Below are positions 1 to 5,856 of a stretch of 11,675 nt of DNA, piece by piece. The notes under the pieces were generated by a model. That model saw only the letters and a program-made list of their open reading frames with translations, was not told the origin of the DNA and ran no database searches. This DNA comes from an uncultured Clostridium sp. (lineage in GTDB: Bacteria; Bacillota_A; Clostridia; TANB77; CAG-508): the NCBI GenBank assembly GCA_946491915.1, contig CAMLYR010000041.1, forward strand, positions 1 through 11,675, written 5' to 3'. Within the stretch, counting starts at the first letter, position 1, and each line of letters opens with the position of its first letter. A program made the position numbers and the translations under genes.

Positions 1-42
1 AATTCCTATTTTTAATTTATTAAAAATATCTAATTCGTCCAC
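1..42 (-). CDS. rpoC: RNA polymerase subunit beta' N-terminus (partial, cut by left edge)
   Basis: Only 14 codons are visible, starting with GTG at 42-40 and running off the left edge. They read MDELDIFNKLKIGI, which fits the usual Firmicutes RpoC start, where a short acidic/hydrophobic lead is followed by an xxIGLASP-type segment. A ribosome site AAGGGGG (50-56) sits 7 nt upstream of the GTG, which supports the start. The gene lies on the same strand as rpoB and downstream of it, the expected order. The known role of the family is to form, with RpoB, the catalytic core of RNA polymerase. The identification rests on 14 residues plus position, so it is probable rather than certain. What is odd is the distance from rpoB: about 1.2 kb, filled by other genes and repeats. 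Confidence 0.75.
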   Translation of the reverse strand, partial: MDELDIFNKLKIGI

Positions 43-64
43 TTTATTTCCCCCTTGAACAATA

Positions 65-180
65 GGGACGTGTCAAAATGGACAATTTTTGTCCATTTGG
101 GACATACCCCTATTAATTATTAATCTTAAACATTCAGGTATGTCCCATTTGGACATTTTTTGTCCATTTTGACACGTCCC
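65..180. repeat. REP/BIME-like inverted double hairpin
   Basis: Two 44-nt arms (65-108 and 137-180) are inverted copies matching at about 38 of 44 positions. The outer 20 nt of each arm match perfectly, beginning GGGACGTGTCAAAATGGACA. Each arm also folds alone: in the left arm TGGACAA pairs with TTGTCCA over a 3-nt loop, and the right arm has a GGACA/TGTCC stem. A hairpin inside each arm of a larger inverted repeat is typical of REP doublets (BIMEs), which in other genomes are spread by Y1 (RAYT) transposases. No such transposase is in the window. The element ends 9 nt before the rpoC ribosome site, so in the mRNA it would form a large structure just upstream of rpoC translation. Confidence 0.7.
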
Positions 181-194
181 CAAACGTTTTGGGT

Positions 195-269
195 AATTCT
201 AAAACAGGTGAAGAGGTCTAGCCACCGCTGGTGCAATTCCCTCCTGTCGCCCCTTTCCTTTTTAGAATT
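195..269 (-). other. GC-rich nested stem-loop, candidate structured RNA of unknown class
   Basis: A perfect 10-bp inverted repeat (195-204 with 260-269) encloses a block much richer in G and C than its surroundings. Read on the minus (mRNA) strand, helices nest inside it: CAG/CUG, then GAGG/CCUC with a 5-nt bulge, then CACC/GGUG closing an AGC loop. A purine-rich single-stranded stretch (AAGGAAAGGGGCG) lies on the 5' side. The arms are symmetrical enough that the plus strand could also be the RNA. It was compared by eye with tRNA and with the cobalamin, c-di-GMP, THF and fluoride riboswitches without a convincing match. It may be an RNA element, a repeat, or a remnant of a mobile element. Confidence 0.4.
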
Positions 270-282
270 TATTCAGTTAATT

Positions 283-627
283 TTATTTTTCTAATTCTTT
301 TAGTATAAATGCTTTTATCACAGGTATATCATCAATTGCTGTATAGAAAATTTTATCTGAATCCATCTTTCCATATCCGTGTGCAAATCTATTTCTCATA
401 CCTCTAATTGCATTCCAATTAATTTCATTTTTTGTCATTTCTAAATATTCATCTGTCAAATGATTTGCTAACTCACCAATCTGAAATATTTTCATTGAAA
501 GTGAATCTTTGTAGTCATTATCCTTTTTAAAATTCTCTATTTCACTTCCAAAACGATTGATTGTTTTTTCTATTTCATTACAGTATTTAAGCATGTGTTT
601 TAATATAGTAACATCTCTTTTATCCAT
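283..627 (-). CDS. hepT: HEPN-domain RNase toxin (HepT-like, DUF86)
   Basis: A 114-residue protein of the usual DUF86/HepT length and helical character. The family hallmark is intact: R78-N-R-F-A-H83-G-Y85, the RX4HXY motif. In studied members Arg and His form the RNase site of a HEPN dimer, and the Tyr is the residue AMPylated by the partner MntA to silence the toxin. Its ATG (627) lies inside the end of mntA, overlapping by 8 nt, and its own ribosome site is weak (AGAGTGAT). Translational coupling to the antitoxin is therefore likely. The order, antitoxin then toxin, is typical of these pairs. No frameshift or missing key residue is seen. The RNA target, and whether it acts in phage defence or plasmid-like maintenance, cannot be told from the sequence. 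Its location in an rpoB-rpoC gap is highly unusual. Confidence 0.88.
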   Translation of the reverse strand: MDKRDVTILKHMLKYCNEIEKTINRFGSEIENFKKDNDYKDSLSMKIFQIGELANHLTDEYLEMTKNEINWNAIRGMRNRFAHGYGKMDSDKIFYTAIDDIPVIKAFILKELEK

Positions 628-955
628 ATATCATCACTCTTTCTTTTTTTATTGTATCATAGAATTCTTGTTCTAATTCATCCATCTCGTCTTCTTTAAA
701 ACATTCTTCTTCTATTAAATCAACTTCTTTTTTTAGAACTTGTTTTAATGCTTCTAAAATAGCCCCTATAATTAATAAACTCTTTATATTCTTGGCTACT
801 ATGATGATATCTATATCACTATTTTCGTCATAATCTCCTCTTGCATAAGAACCAAAAACATATGCTTTTTCTACCCCATATTCTTCAAAAATTGGTTTTG
901 TCAACTTTTGAATTTGGATTATAGCCTCATTATTTTTCTTGTTTGAACTTTTCAT
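620..955 (-). CDS. mntA: MNT-domain nucleotidyltransferase antitoxin (MntA-like)
   Basis: A 111-residue minimal nucleotidyltransferase. The catalytic signature is complete: G35-S36, ten residues, then D47-I-D49 (GSYARG...SDID), with a plausible third metal-binding Asp at D79 (EVDL). Known MntA antitoxins transfer AMP to a tyrosine of the neighbouring HEPN toxin, and that tyrosine motif is present in the downstream gene. The start is well supported: ATG at 955 follows an AGGAGG-type ribosome site (about 958-968) by 4 nt. It lies 48 nt after the small 48-residue ORF and overlaps the toxin gene by 8 nt. No separate promoter is obvious, so it is probably transcribed with rpoB. It could in principle belong to another minimal nucleotidyltransferase subgroup, but the adjacent RX4HXY partner makes the assignment strong. 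Confidence 0.88.
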   Translation of the reverse strand: MKSSNKKNNEAIIQIQKLTKPIFEEYGVEKAYVFGSYARGDYDENSDIDIIIVAKNIKSLLIIGAILEALKQVLKKEVDLIEEECFKEDEMDELEQEFYDTIKKERVMIYG

Positions 956-1003
956 AAGACCTCCTCCTGATATCTAATTTCATTTAAATCATCGTTACTC
1001 TCA

Positions 1004-1150
1004 CTAATATTTATTTTCCTTTGAGACATTCTCAATTTTTCCTTTATGCCATTCTTCTTGGGCAGGATATTCTTCAAAGGCATCTTTTAAATCTTTAACT
1101 TTTCCATATTCATAAGCCGTTTTTAAAAAATCACTTAATTCTTCTTTCAT
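1004..1150 (-). CDS. Small protein of unknown function (48 aa) upstream of mntA-hepT
   Basis: A 48-codon reading frame beginning MKEELSDFLKTAYEY and rich in Glu and Lys, with aromatic residues in the middle (DAFEEYP, EEWHKG). I do not recognise its family. The start is chosen at 1150 because a good ribosome site, GGAAAGGA (1159-1166), lies 8 nt upstream. An ATG 12 codons earlier has no comparable site. The frame is on the same strand as rpoB and lies between it and the toxin-antitoxin pair. It has no signal peptide or membrane segment and could form one or two helices. Possible roles are an accessory partner of the mntA-hepT pair or an unrelated small protein. The ribosome site and protein-like composition argue for a real gene, but proof would need homologues. 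Confidence 0.55.
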   Translation of the reverse strand: MKEELSDFLKTAYEYGKVKDLKDAFEEYPAQEEWHKGKIENVSKENKY

Positions 1151-1265
1151 AGTTAATATCCTTTCCATTTCATTTTTTTGTAACATAAAAGGATTTTCTT
1201 TTTCGAATTAACGACGTAAGATGCCTGATTTAGTTCGTTTTAGACGCTGCTTTTCATTCGTTTAC

Positions 1266-4200
1266 CTACATAATGTCATTATCATTATCCAAATTATCCC
1301 CTGCCAAATCACTACCAAAGAACATCTCATCATCTTCATCATCTAAACCTTCAAATAACTCGTCATTTCCATCGTCTAGTGATTCATTTTCATCTTCTAG
1401 TAGGATGTCATCCTCTGTACTTTCTTCTGTATAGCCATCGTCTAGGTCTCCATCTGCTACTACTTCATCTTCAGCTAGATATTTCTTTTCTTTCTCTGGA
1501 TCATATTCAATTCCATCTTCTATATTTTCTTTCAATTCTAGTTCTTGGTTATCGTCAGAATATAATCTAACATCTAATCCTAAAGATTGAAGTTCTTTTA
1601 CTAATACTTTAAAGCTTTCTGGAACACCTGGTTCTGGAACATTTTCGCCTTTAACGATTGCTTCATATGTTTTTACTCTTCCAACAACATCGTCAGATTT
1701 AACGGTTAACATTTCTTGTAGTGTATATGCAGCACCATAAGCCTCTAATGCCCAAACCTCCATTTCTCCAAAACGTTGTCCACCAAATTGTGCTTTTCCT
1801 CCTAGAGGTTGTTGTGTAACTAATGAGTATGGTCCAGTTGAACGTGCATGGATTTTATCATCTACTAAGTGATGTAGTTTTAACATATACATAACACCAA
1901 CTGTGATTGGGCTTGCAAATGGCTCTCCTGTTCTACCATCATATAGTGTTGTTTTACCATCTTTATTCATTCCAGCTTCTGCTAATAATTCTTCAACATC
2001 TTCTTGTGTTGCACCATCAAATACTGGTGTAGATACATGCCATCCTAATGCTTTTGCAGCTCCTCCTAAGTGAACCTCTAGTACTTGCCCTAAGTTCATA
2101 CGAGATGGAACTCCAAGAGGGTTTAATAAGATATCAATTGGTGTACCATCTGGCATAAATGGCATATCTTCTTCTGGTAATACTCTTGAGATAACACCTT
2201 TGTTACCATGACGTCCAGCCATTTTATCTCCAACAGAGATTTTTCTCTTTGTTGCAATATAACATCTAATAATTTGGTTAACACCAGGTCCTAATTCATC
2301 TGAATTTTCTCTTGTAAAGATTTTAACATCTACGATGGTTCCTGCTTCTCCATGAGGTACTCTTAATGATGTATCTCTTACTTCTCTTGCTTTTTCACCA
2401 AAGATAGCTCTTAATAATCTTTCTTCAGCTGTTAATTCAGTTTCTCCTTTTGGTGTTACTTTTCCAACTAAGATATCTCCTGGTCTTACTTCTGCACCAA
2501 TACGAATAATTCCGTTTTCATCTAGGTCTTTTAAAGAATCATCACCAATGTTTGGAATATCTCTTGTGATTTCTTCTGCCCCTAGTTTTGTATCTCTACA
2601 TTCACAGTCATATTCTTCAATATGAATTGATGTAAATACATCTTCTTTTACTAATCTTTCATTTAATAGAATAGCATCCTCATAGTTGTATCCTTCCCAT
2701 GTTGAGAAAGCAACTAATACGTTTTTACCTAATGCCATTTCTCCATTTTTGGTTGATGGTCCATCTGCTATGGCATCACCTTTTTTTACAATTTCACCTT
2801 TTTTAACAATTGGTTTTTGGTTAATACATGTACCACCATTTGTTCTTTTGAATTTACGTAATTTATGTACAACTGTTTTTCCATTGTTATATTTAACCGT
2901 GATAGCATCTCCTGTTACTTTTTCGATAACACCGTCATCTTCTGCTAATACTAAGATTCCTGAATCTTTTGCTGCTCTGTATTCAATACCTGTTCCAACA
3001 ATTGGGCTTTCTGTAATCATCAATGGTACAGCTTGACGTTGCATGTTTGCACCCATTAATGCTCTTTTTGCATCATCATGCTCTAAGAATGGAATCATGG
3101 CTGCTGCAATAGAAACTAATTGTTTTGGTGAAACATCTACATATTGTACTTTTTCTCTATCAACCTCGATAACTTCATTTCTAAATCTAACTCTAATTCT
3201 TGGATGTACAAAACTTCCATCTTTGTTAATTGGTTCTGATGCTTGTGCAATAATATAATTATCTTCTACATCTGCACTCATATATTCTACAATGTCTGTT
3301 AATTTATGCGTTTCTGGATCTACTTTTCTATATGGTGTTTCGATAAATCCATATTCATTAATTTGTGCAAATGATGATAATGCAGAGATTAATCCAATGT
3401 TTGGTCCTTCTGGTGATTCAATTGGACATAATCTACCATAATGTGTATAGTGAATATCACGAACCTCGAATCCTGCTCTATCTCTTGTTAATCCTCCAGG
3501 TCCTAATGCAGAAATTCTTCTTTTATGTGTTAATTCTGAAAGTGGGTTTGTTTGATCCATGAATTGTGATAATTGTGAGCTTCCGAAGAATTCTCTAATA
3601 GCTGATGTGATTGGTTTTGTATTAATTAATGTTTGTGGTGTTACAACATCTAAGTCTTGAATGGTCATTCTTTCACGAACAACTCTTTCTAATCTTGTTA
3701 AACCAATTCTGAATTGGTTTTGTAATAATTCACCAACACAACGAATTCTACGGTTTGCTAAGTGGTCAATATCATCTGGTTCACCTAATCCATGTGATAA
3801 GTTTAGTAAATAGTTAATAGAAGCAATCATATCTTCTGTTGTAATATGTTTTGGTACTAATTCATTTTGTCTTTCTTCTATGATTTTTACTAATTCTTTT
3901 TCGTCTGTATTGTCTATAATATTTTTTAATACATCATAATTTACTAATTCTTTAAAATGTAATTTACTTAAATCCACATTTGGTAATACTTTGTGAATAT
4001 TTACTGTACTATTTCCGATAATTCTAACAGTTCTGTCTCCAACAGTAACATCTACCACATTGATTCCTGCATTTTGGATATCTTCTGCAACTTCTTCTGT
4101 AATTACTTCTCCTGCTTGTACAAATACTTCTCCTGTTTCATTATCTACAATATCTGTTGCAGCAACTTTTCCTTTAATTCTTCCAGCTAATGCTAATTTT

Positions 4201-5033
4201 TGGTTGAATTTGTATCTTCCTACCTTTGCTAAGTCATATCTTCTATTATCATAGAATAATCCATTAAATAGGTTTCTTGCAGCATCTGCAGTTGGAAGTT
4301 CTCCTGGTCTTAATTTTTTATAAATTTCAATTAATGCTTCATCTTGATCTTTTATGGTATCTTTATTAAGTGTTGCTTTCATTAATTCTTCATCACCAAA
4401 TAAATCTAAGATTTGTGCATCTGTTGCGACACCAATGGCTCTTAAAAGTGTCGTTACGGGTACTTTTCTTGTTCTATCCACACGAACCCAGAAAATATCA
4501 TTTCCATCTGTTTCATATTCTAACCATGCTCCACGAAGTGGCATAACAGTTGATGTATATGTTCTTTTTCCTGTTTTTGTATCAAATTCCTCTGCATAGT
4601 AACAGCCTGGTGAACGAACCAACTGGCTGACAACAACTCTTTCTGCTCCATTGATAACAAATGTTCCACTATCTGTCATTAGTGGGAAATCACCCAAATA
4701 GATTTCTTGCTCTTTGATTTCTCCTGTTTCACGGTTAATTAATCTTACCTTTACATGTAATCTTGTTGAATATGTTGCATCTCTTTCTTTTGCTTCTTCT
4801 ACTGTGTATTTTGTCTTGTCCTCCATGTAGTAATCAAAAAATTCAAGTACAAGATTTCCAGAATAGTCTTCGATTGGAGAAATGTCTTTTAAAACTTCAC
4901 CTAATCCTTCTTCTACAAACCAATCATAAGAATCTCTTTGTACTTTGATAAGGTTTGGCATTTCGATATAATCGCCAACTTTTGCGAAATCTTTACGAGA
5001 AGCTTTCTCGTATTTCACTTCTTTTAATTTCAA
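1266..5033 (-). CDS. rpoB: DNA-directed RNA polymerase subunit beta
   Basis: A complete 1255-residue beta subunit, which with beta' forms the catalytic core of RNA polymerase. Family motifs run the full length: an N-terminal protrusion start ([16 protein letters not shown]), the rifampicin region (about residues 480-512, [12 protein letters not shown] to [12 protein letters not shown]), the [14 protein letters not shown] segment, active-site lysines in [12 protein letters not shown], and the C-terminal [18 protein letters not shown] anchor for beta'. The last 80 or so residues are an unusually acidic Asp/Glu-rich tail. I place the start at TTG 5033, because a perfect ribosome site GAGGTGA (5039-5045) precedes it by 5 nt. 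The GTG at 5042 lies inside that site. The gene is read from its own promoter through a long leader. rplL, its common upstream neighbour, is absent, and rpoC follows only after 1.2 kb of accessory sequence. Confidence 0.98.
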
Positions 5034-5038
5034 GAAAA

Positions 5039-5045
5039 TCACCTC
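5039..5045 (-). promoter_or_regulatory. rpoB ribosome binding site fixing a TTG start
   Basis: GAGGTGA on the minus strand matches the anti-Shine-Dalgarno over 7 nt and lies 5 nt before TTG (5033-5031). The in-frame GTG at 5042-5040 overlaps this site and so is unlikely to be the start. Confidence 0.75.
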
Positions 5046-5071
5046 ATATAAAATATTAAGCAGAAATAACT

Positions 5072-5343
5072 ATCAACATATTTGTTGATTTAATTTATTG
5101 GTTAAAAGAAGTCCTTCTTAAATGATAAATTTCTTGTCTAAGTTTTAAAATTGTCTGCTTTTACAATTTTAAATTTCCTTAGGGAAACTTATATTTAATT
5201 CCTCTTCTTTTAAGATTTAACATTTGAATAAAAATTTTTTGAATATATGATTTGATTTTGAAAAATAATGATATTTAACCAGTACATATAATAAAACGGC
5301 AATAAAAGAGCTGTCAAAAAATCTTCATTTTTCAACTGGCTCT
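5072..5343 (-). promoter_or_regulatory. rpoB: Structured rpoB mRNA leader
   Basis: From the predicted transcription start near 5439 to the rpoB start there are about 400 untranslated nt. On the mRNA strand several stem-loops can be drawn: 5307-5343 (terminator-like, listed separately), 5171-5190 (8-bp stem, CUAA loop), 5144-5173 (11-bp perfect stem, 8-nt loop), 5106-5119 (5-bp stem) and 5072-5089 (7-bp perfect stem). The second and third share 5171-5173 and would compete for these bases. No coding frame of note is seen in the leader. The arrangement suggests control of RNA polymerase synthesis at the RNA level, but the AT-rich background makes small hairpins common, so only the larger ones are persuasive. 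Confidence 0.5.
5301..5343 (-). terminator. Terminator-like hairpin in rpoB leader (possible attenuator)
   Basis: On the minus strand AGAGC pairs with GCUCU, followed across a small internal loop by GUUGAAAA with UUUUUGAC. A U-rich tail (UUUUAUU) follows directly. It lies about 100-140 nt after the predicted rpoB transcription start. No minus-strand gene ends upstream that it could serve, so an attenuator role is the simplest reading. Confidence 0.5.
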
Positions 5344-5445
5344 AGTAAAATATTCAATTTTGTTAAAATTTACTTTTCTTTATTTTAATCACCTTTTTTA
5401 TTTCTTTTTTTAGGCTAATTAAATTCTCTTTTTCAAATCTGTATT

Positions 5446-5475
5446 ATTATATATCAAAACACCTACGGAAGTCAA
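5446..5475 (-). promoter_or_regulatory. rpoB promoter (sigma-A type)
   Basis: On the minus strand, TTGACT (5470-5475) and TATAAT (5446-5451) are separated by 18 nt. The match is strong and lies upstream of rpoB with no other minus-strand gene between. Transcription would start near 5439. Confidence 0.75.
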
Positions 5476-5514
5476 TACTTTTTAGCAATTTTTCCCAAAA
5501 ATAATGTGTTCTAT

Positions 5515-5754
5515 GTTACCATTCAGACATAAGTATGGAAGGGAGTATTCATAAATGATTTCATTACGAATGTGATTGGAGATGTTTTAGAATTTGTTAT
5601 ATAATTTATTGAGGGATGTTCACGCTACTCACGTAGTGAGGGGCTGAGTGAAAGCGGCTCAATAAATTATGTTACAAATTCTTAAATATCGTATTGAGCC
5701 GAGTAATAAATCATTTATGAATACTCCCTTCCATACTTATGTCTGAATTGTAAC
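5515..5754. repeat. 240-bp foldback (MITE-like) element
   Basis: The ends are inverted: GTTAC at 5515 matches GTAAC at 5754. Between them, 5521-5561 and 5708-5748 are a perfect 41-bp inverted repeat. Pairing resumes further in around 5588-5612 with 5657-5681, with only a few mismatches. The middle holds a small CTCAC-GTA-GTGAG hairpin in a locally GC-richer core. There is no coding frame. Length, terminal inverted repeats and lack of genes fit a miniature transposable element or a chromosomal foldback repeat. I see no clear target-site duplication. It sits exactly between the divergent promoters of rpoB and the COG2426 gene. Confidence 0.75.
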
Positions 5755-5794
5755 TTAAATTTTATAGAATATTTAATTTATTTTATGACATATA

Positions 5795-5823
5795 TAGACA
5801 ATTTTTACATTTTATAGTACAAT
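5795..5823 (+). promoter_or_regulatory. Promoter of the COG2426 membrane protein gene
   Basis: TAGACA (5795-5800) and TACAAT (5818-5823) are 17 nt apart. The pair lies about 34 nt before the ATG, just outside the right end of the foldback element. Confidence 0.6.
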
Positions 5824-5856
5824 ACAAAAAGATTTTAGAAAAACTAAGGAGGAATT

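Follow-up and report, generated by a model that had tools for sequence, protein, structure and literature searches.

In an 11,675-nt stretch of DNA from an uncultured Clostridium sp. (contig CAMLYR010000041.1 of assembly GCA_946491915.1; hereafter the window, meaning this whole stretch), the RNA polymerase genes rpoB and rpoC are held apart by an intact type VII HepT/MntA toxin-antitoxin (TA) module, with what remains of an earlier PemK-like gene next to it. The arrangement is best read as a cargo slot, bounded on one side by rpoB and, in most cargo-bearing genomes, on the other by a structured RNA next to rpoC. Under this reading, to which a rough probability of 0.6 can be attached, the module would be read through from rpoBC and the RNA would keep expression of rpoC independent of it. 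At the level of sequence, the case is carried by intact open genes that are under purifying selection, by a module that is patchily distributed and occupies one site in 16 genomes, by the different cargo of relatives, and by a covarying RNA between the cargo and rpoC.

A toxin-antitoxin module between rpoB and rpoC

The minus strand of the window carries, in order, rpoB, a 60-aa remnant open reading frame (ORF), mntA, hepT, the RNA element, a dispersed palindrome and the start of rpoC (Table 1). A preliminary description of this DNA had reported TA genes between rpoB and rpoC, with the rpoB stop at 1266 and the rpoC start at 42 lying about 1.2 kb apart, and the observation is real: both genes are on the minus strand and the gap measures 1,223 nt. 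That the left flank encodes RpoC also holds, as the 14 residues within the window differ at one or two positions from the RpoC N-termini of L001, L003 and L011. Moreover, in genome G138 (locus L209) rpoC comes after mntA-hepT, with RpoC residues 1-317 inside the locus and an open frame of 1,186 aa.

Table 1. Features of the rpoB-rpoC region of the window.
Feature	Position	Strand	Basis
rpoC start, GTG, 14 codons inside the window	1..42	-	Match to RpoC N-terminus of relatives
Dispersed palindromic repeat between RNA element and rpoC	65..180		44-nt arms, 65-108 and 137-180, 86% complementary
Conserved structured RNA, ~85 nt, next to rpoC	195..279	-	Covariation, model R1 matches, alignment
hepT, predicted HEPN RNase toxin, RX4HXY (R78-H83-Y85)	283..627	-	PF01934, E 7.4e-17
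mntA, predicted adenylyltransferase antitoxin, GSX10DXD at residues 35-49	620..955	-	PF01909, E 1.6e-15
60-aa ORF, remnant of 165-aa PemK/MazF-like gene	1004..1186	-	First 46 residues 93% identical to G044 gene
rpoB (RNA polymerase beta subunit), long acidic C-terminal tail	1266..5042	-	Best segment 94% identity to L001, residues 1-1254 matched

Among 80 comparison loci, mostly from Firmicutes and collected by RpoB similarity, the gap could be measured in 77 (3 were not measurable) and had a median of 40 nt, which bears out the expectation that the two genes are normally almost adjacent. All but one of the measured gaps (76 of 77) fell between -4 and 461 nt, and the sole longer case, 2,081 nt at L046, was caused by a frame break inside rpoB. 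The 461-nt gap, at L060 of Enterococcus alcedinis, appears by eye to contain repeated stem-loop units with no evident gene.

The pair of genes in the gap looks, from its sequence, like a working TA module. The first codons of hepT overlap the end of mntA by 8 nt, the RX4HXY motif of HepT reads RNRFAHGY (residues 78-85) and recurs in the 10 other intact HepT proteins, and the GSX10DXD motif of MntA, GSYARGDYDENSDID, is found in all 16 MntA proteins. HepT/MntA pairs are defined by these toxin and antitoxin motifs, and the window has all three of the class I HEPN/MNT hallmarks given there, namely neighbouring PF01934 and PF01909 genes, RX4HXY and GSX10DXD (PMC7641770). In a sequence search of the PDB, MntA matched 2rff (E 5.7e-9) and the MntA structure 5yep (E 2e-4); for HepT the best match in the same kind of search, HI0074, was not significant (E 0.19).

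The same module recurs at the same site. The genomes of relatives served as the centre of the search, the main set being 194 genomes from the genus to which G044 belongs. An MntA-family match of some kind occurred in 132 of them, and matches of at least 70% identity (72-98%) occurred in 15, the next best being 47%. Each of these 15, among them the later additions L221, L309 and L319, was located between rpoB and rpoC. With the window included, mntA is open in 16 of 16 modules, while 11 have an intact hepT and the other five (L212, L214, L215, L217 and L221) carry a broken hepT or none at all. When these 194 genomes were searched separately for HepT, no match of at least 70% lacked an adjacent mntA. 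Loss of the toxin before the antitoxin fits the prediction for a working antitoxin. The median dN/dS, by the Nei-Gojobori method with pairs of dS 0.05-2 kept, was 0.119 for mntA (119 of 120 pairs) and 0.098 for hepT (54 of 55 pairs), and these values point to purifying selection on both genes. A sister HepT/MntA subfamily (HepT 59-60% and MntA 43-47% identity) was also seen in G300, G170, G294, G264, G177, G302 and G245, on contigs that differ from those of rpoC.

Alternative cargo and its turnover

The HepT/MntA module is one of several kinds of cargo found at this junction. The rpoB-rpoC gap of G044, G256 and G286 is occupied by a 165-aa gene whose C-terminal part resembles PemK, and the G044 protein scores above the gathering threshold of PF02452 (26.2 vs 23.1 bits, E 9.4e-6). 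Remnants of PemK-like genes were found in five more gaps (L234, L246, L270, L271 and L274). The 60-aa ORF of the window, which itself has no Pfam match, is such a remnant and was rejected as an independent gene. Another kind of cargo is a BNR/sialidase-like gene of ~330 aa in the 1,448-nt gap of G109 (L106; PF13088, E 1.9e-31). When 10 cargo proteins were tested against Pfam, nine had no match above the cut-off, the exception being this BNR protein.

Two further families are orphans bound to the site. In the 194 genomes, all 11 matches of the first (L234:1167-1496 and its homologues) and all five matches of the second lie inside the rpoB-rpoC gap. Among 5.8 billion proteins, the first family had only 11 matches, one of which, a 174-aa protein, aligned with 30% of the query. 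Its structure model resembles a winged helix, with no confident structural relative. The winged-helix-like protein could possibly be a partner of RNA polymerase.

The identified cargo genes are all on the operon strand; the ORFs of 60-138 aa on the minus strand of some large gaps are assumed to be antisense or repeat-derived. Gaps of at least 400 nt make up 48 of the 214 collected, which is not a frequency, as L209-L220 and L250-L279 were chosen for MntA or PemK-like matches. In the family draw the figure was 6 of 96, plus L106, which was measured later. The 214 gaps are non-identical sequences, one genome with overlapping genes (L001, L225) being counted twice. Judged from these sequences, the rpoB-rpoC junction in this Clostridia group is a slot whose small-gene content changes.

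Turnover at the slot was set against a host tree of 208 tips, built from the rpoB and rpoC ends, in which 15 carriers including the window were placed (L209 was not placeable). The carriers require 13 changes on this tree, as against a mean of 14.6 for shuffled labels, and 13 or fewer occurred in 17 of 300 shuffles; by this measure they appear nearly scattered. Close neighbours can lack the module altogether, as seen for L214 (gap 940 nt) and L329 (gap 12 nt), and for L213 and L307 (gap 13 nt). The L213-L214 pair has an mntA dS of 0.07 vs an rpoB dS of 0.58, and exchange of cargo therefore happens as well as loss. In the mntA tree the window groups with G138, with nucleotide identities of 96% for mntA and 98% for hepT, yet upstream of this shared module lies the PemK-like remnant in the window and an orphan winged-helix-like gene in G138. 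The preliminary description had suggested that the position in rpoBC protects the module from loss. Scattered carriers, module-free neighbours and the five broken or missing toxins contradict this: the site is a slot with exchange and loss and not a shield against loss.

A structured RNA upstream of rpoC

In most genomes with cargo, the far boundary of the slot is an RNA element. A stem-loop previously described as GC-rich is indeed present in the gap, and its reading can be extended to that of a conserved structured RNA, built of a 13-bp outer helix with one bulge and a 6-bp inner helix. The letters CGAC and AATTG are invariant across 23 aligned sequences of the element. Family-wide, a hairpin stands ahead of rpoC with near-invariant loop letters and variable stems.

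Covariation was assessed in two alignments. The first, A1, comprised 61 of 66 extracted sequences, leaving out L083, L090, L096, L097 and L106, with L102, L135, L176 and L177 excluded beforehand. Its covariation exceeds that of shuffles, only 65% of cells pair, and slides of 0 and +1 both score high because the arms shift register. The genus alignment, A4, comprised 23 of 29 sequences and 19 pairs, leaving out L082, L214, L224, L244 and L249, which were short or nearly duplicated others, and L298, which seems to have a different outer stem. Here 93.3% of cells were paired, compared with at most 56.0% when slid, and two-sided changes occurred in 11 pairs against a shuffled mean of 5.3; on no measure did any of 500 shuffles reach these values. 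The model R1, whose structure spans the inner helix, had supplied most of the A4 sequences, and the outer helix is thus the more independent test. RNAalifold, unaided, gave essentially the same fold.

The element is also closely tied to its position. In 59 family genomes (E 0.1), R1 gave 31 matches in 30 genomes, of which 30 lay just upstream of rpoC and one, weak (E 0.042), lay elsewhere; many of these matches belong to the training set, and the telling part is the near absence of matches elsewhere. In 47 mostly cargo-bearing gap loci, of which 44 were outside the training set (some of them almost the same as training sequences), R1 gave 39 matches. Every one fell within the gap and on the operon strand, and where cargo was present the match lay downstream of it. 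Among the eight loci without a match, the element is visible in the alignment for L213, L324 and L221, and by eye for L214, L219 and L288. A loose pattern placed the motif in 140 of 214 gaps, misplacing it in L209, L234 and L237, where the R1 match is nearer rpoC. A search of 245 genomes of the class returned just two known carriers and failed to pick up G044, itself a carrier. The window had no match in Rfam 15 at the gathering threshold; when the limit was relaxed to E 1 for five family loci, the sole match was a weak one to FourU (E 0.4), on the other strand.

Repeats, transcription signals and flanks

The repeat that had been called REP-like is present next to the RNA, and it proved to be a dispersed palindrome that is not specific to the gap. 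Its 13-nt end has 18, 26, 30 and 60 copies in four relatives, against none for a reversed control. As a functional hairpin it was rejected, being a dispersed repeat whose internal arm sequences vary among relatives.

The operon strand of the window has no terminator-like site, the sole one found being on the opposite strand. The earlier account of a small ORF, mntA, hepT, a stem-loop and a repeat in the gap, without a strong terminator, is in that respect accurate. Promoter-like sites occur at chance level (eight found vs 7.6 expected), and a dedicated promoter for the module is without support.

At the other end of rpoB, the 814 nt upstream of the gene (5043-5856) contain no ORF of at least 50 aa. 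Beyond them comes a gene read in the opposite direction, and rplL does not precede rpoB in the window. The C-terminal tail of RpoB (window 1266-1520) is rich in Asp and Glu, a property common to relatives but variable.

How the slot might work

As the module is oriented with the operon and no terminator-like site was found on that strand, co-expression with rpoBC is the simplest reading, and to this extent the earlier proposal that the module is expressed with RNA polymerase stands; its corollary of protection from loss does not. Polymerases reading through from rpoB would transcribe the module as part of the rpoBC message, translation of hepT would be coupled to that of mntA, and HepT would be an RNase held inactive by MntA through AMPylation of Tyr85. 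The RNA element, whether by ribosome recruitment, mRNA processing or protein binding, could keep expression of rpoC steady whatever lies upstream. Steady rpoC expression, in turn, would let the slot tolerate insertions, and cargo could be swapped by recombination between the conserved ends of rpoB and rpoC.

Several findings weigh against this interpretation. The window proteins score below the NCBIfam equivalog cut-offs of 60 bits (HepT 25.5 for NF047751, MntA 44.2 for NF047752); they are outside these narrow models, yet belong to HepT/MntA by the motif definition. The PemK-like family is found away from rpoBC too, and a 76% relative in G249 has neither rpoB nor rpoC in the 5 kb examined around the gene. 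The mntA tree in part tracks the host tree, since the G122/G293 grouping that follows the window and G138 agrees with it, and mntA and rpoBC identities are moderately correlated (r 0.46, 105 pairs); both would also be compatible with old vertical inheritance and many losses. In just 37 of the 105 pairs was mntA dS below rpoB dS, and the two show no correlation (Spearman 0.03), with dS near saturation. Finally, by eye, the cargo-bearing gaps L218 and L280 lack the RNA element, and 31 of 214 gaps are shorter than 60 nt and too short for it, so that rpoC can evidently manage without the element.

Another way to account for the junction is as a neutral hotspot, where the spacer tolerates insertions, small genes land and decay, and the RNA has a role for rpoC unrelated to the cargo. 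The patchy presence of the module, the decayed pieces of pemK and hepT, and the dispersed palindromes within the gap are all what such a site would leave behind. Purifying selection on both TA genes is harder to reconcile with it, as are the two orphan families present nowhere else in the 194 genomes and the placement of the identified cargo genes on the operon strand, and we consider it rather unlikely.

A third explanation ties toxin control to RNA polymerase synthesis: a drop in rpoBC transcription would deplete the antitoxin and free the RNase, and the module would be kept in rpoBC for that reason. The common site in 16 genomes, the lack of a terminator-like site on the operon strand and the overlap of hepT with mntA would all suit it. 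On the other hand, close relatives of carriers do without the module, five of the 16 modules have a broken or missing toxin, and unrelated cargo occupies the same site, which together make this explanation improbable. The last alternative, that assembly or binning joined a TA contig to rpoBC (an error at the junction that the preliminary description had raised, and one conceivable in that the window may derive from a metagenome record), is very unlikely and was rejected, since 15 other genomes of varying divergence share the arrangement, with the RNA element in place in 14 of the 15 (by R1 in 10, by alignment or eye in L213, L214, L219 and L221; absent in L218).

The cargo-slot reading might conceivably be carried further. 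Tentatively, the RNA element could represent a new type of cis-acting RNA, one that decouples rpoC from rpoB and thereby makes the junction an exchangeable gene slot in an essential operon. The TA modules and orphan winged-helix genes housed there would follow the expression of RNA polymerase, and some of them might act on the polymerase itself; this extension is possible, with the odds somewhat against it. The RNA may then be a ribozyme-like processing site, an autoregulatory binding site for RNA polymerase or an autonomous ribosome-loading element.

The cell needs the products of rpoB and rpoC in equal amounts. A clade that swaps TA modules and orphan genes within rpoBC, upstream of a covarying RNA, offers a route to how synthesis of beta and beta-prime is balanced, how an essential operon hosts cargo, and whether a TA module can run off the RNA polymerase promoter. 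The RNA element itself is a concrete and testable candidate for a new regulatory RNA.

Comparison with known systems

Structured RNAs upstream of genes for the transcription and translation machinery are familiar from the L10 leader and other cis-acting RNAs of the rplJL-rpoBC region. The RNA of the window differs from these in sitting between rpoB and rpoC and in having no Rfam 15 family at the gathering threshold.

Among TA systems, the cargo shared by G044, G256 and G286 resembles PemK/MazF (PF02452) in its C-terminal part, residues 56-155 of the G044 protein. It departs from PemK/MazF in an extra N-terminal part of ~50 aa, which is the sole part surviving in the 60-aa ORF of the window.

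The module of the window shares with the type VII HepT/MntA system SO_3166/SO_3165 of Shewanella oneidensis, as presented in the accessible part of that report, the adjacent PF01934 and PF01909 genes and the RX4HXY and GSX10DXD motifs (PMC7641770). It differs in lying inside the rpoBC operon, at a site common to 16 genomes, and in scoring below the NCBI equivalog cut-offs. The HEPN-MNT system of Legionella pneumophila has the same motifs and the same predicted AMPylation of the RX4HXY tyrosine; its genomic setting is different, and the available portion of that paper makes no mention of a link to RNA polymerase genes (PMC11586414). Searches of the open-access literature, judged by titles and the openings of abstracts, turned up no report of genes or structured RNA between rpoB and rpoC, the phrase "between rpoB and rpoC" occurring in one mycobacterial paper (PMC5660063). 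On that same basis, the HepT/MntA kind of module is known, and what appears to be new is its repeated location in rpoBC, a slot with site-bound gene families, and an unlisted RNA at its edge.

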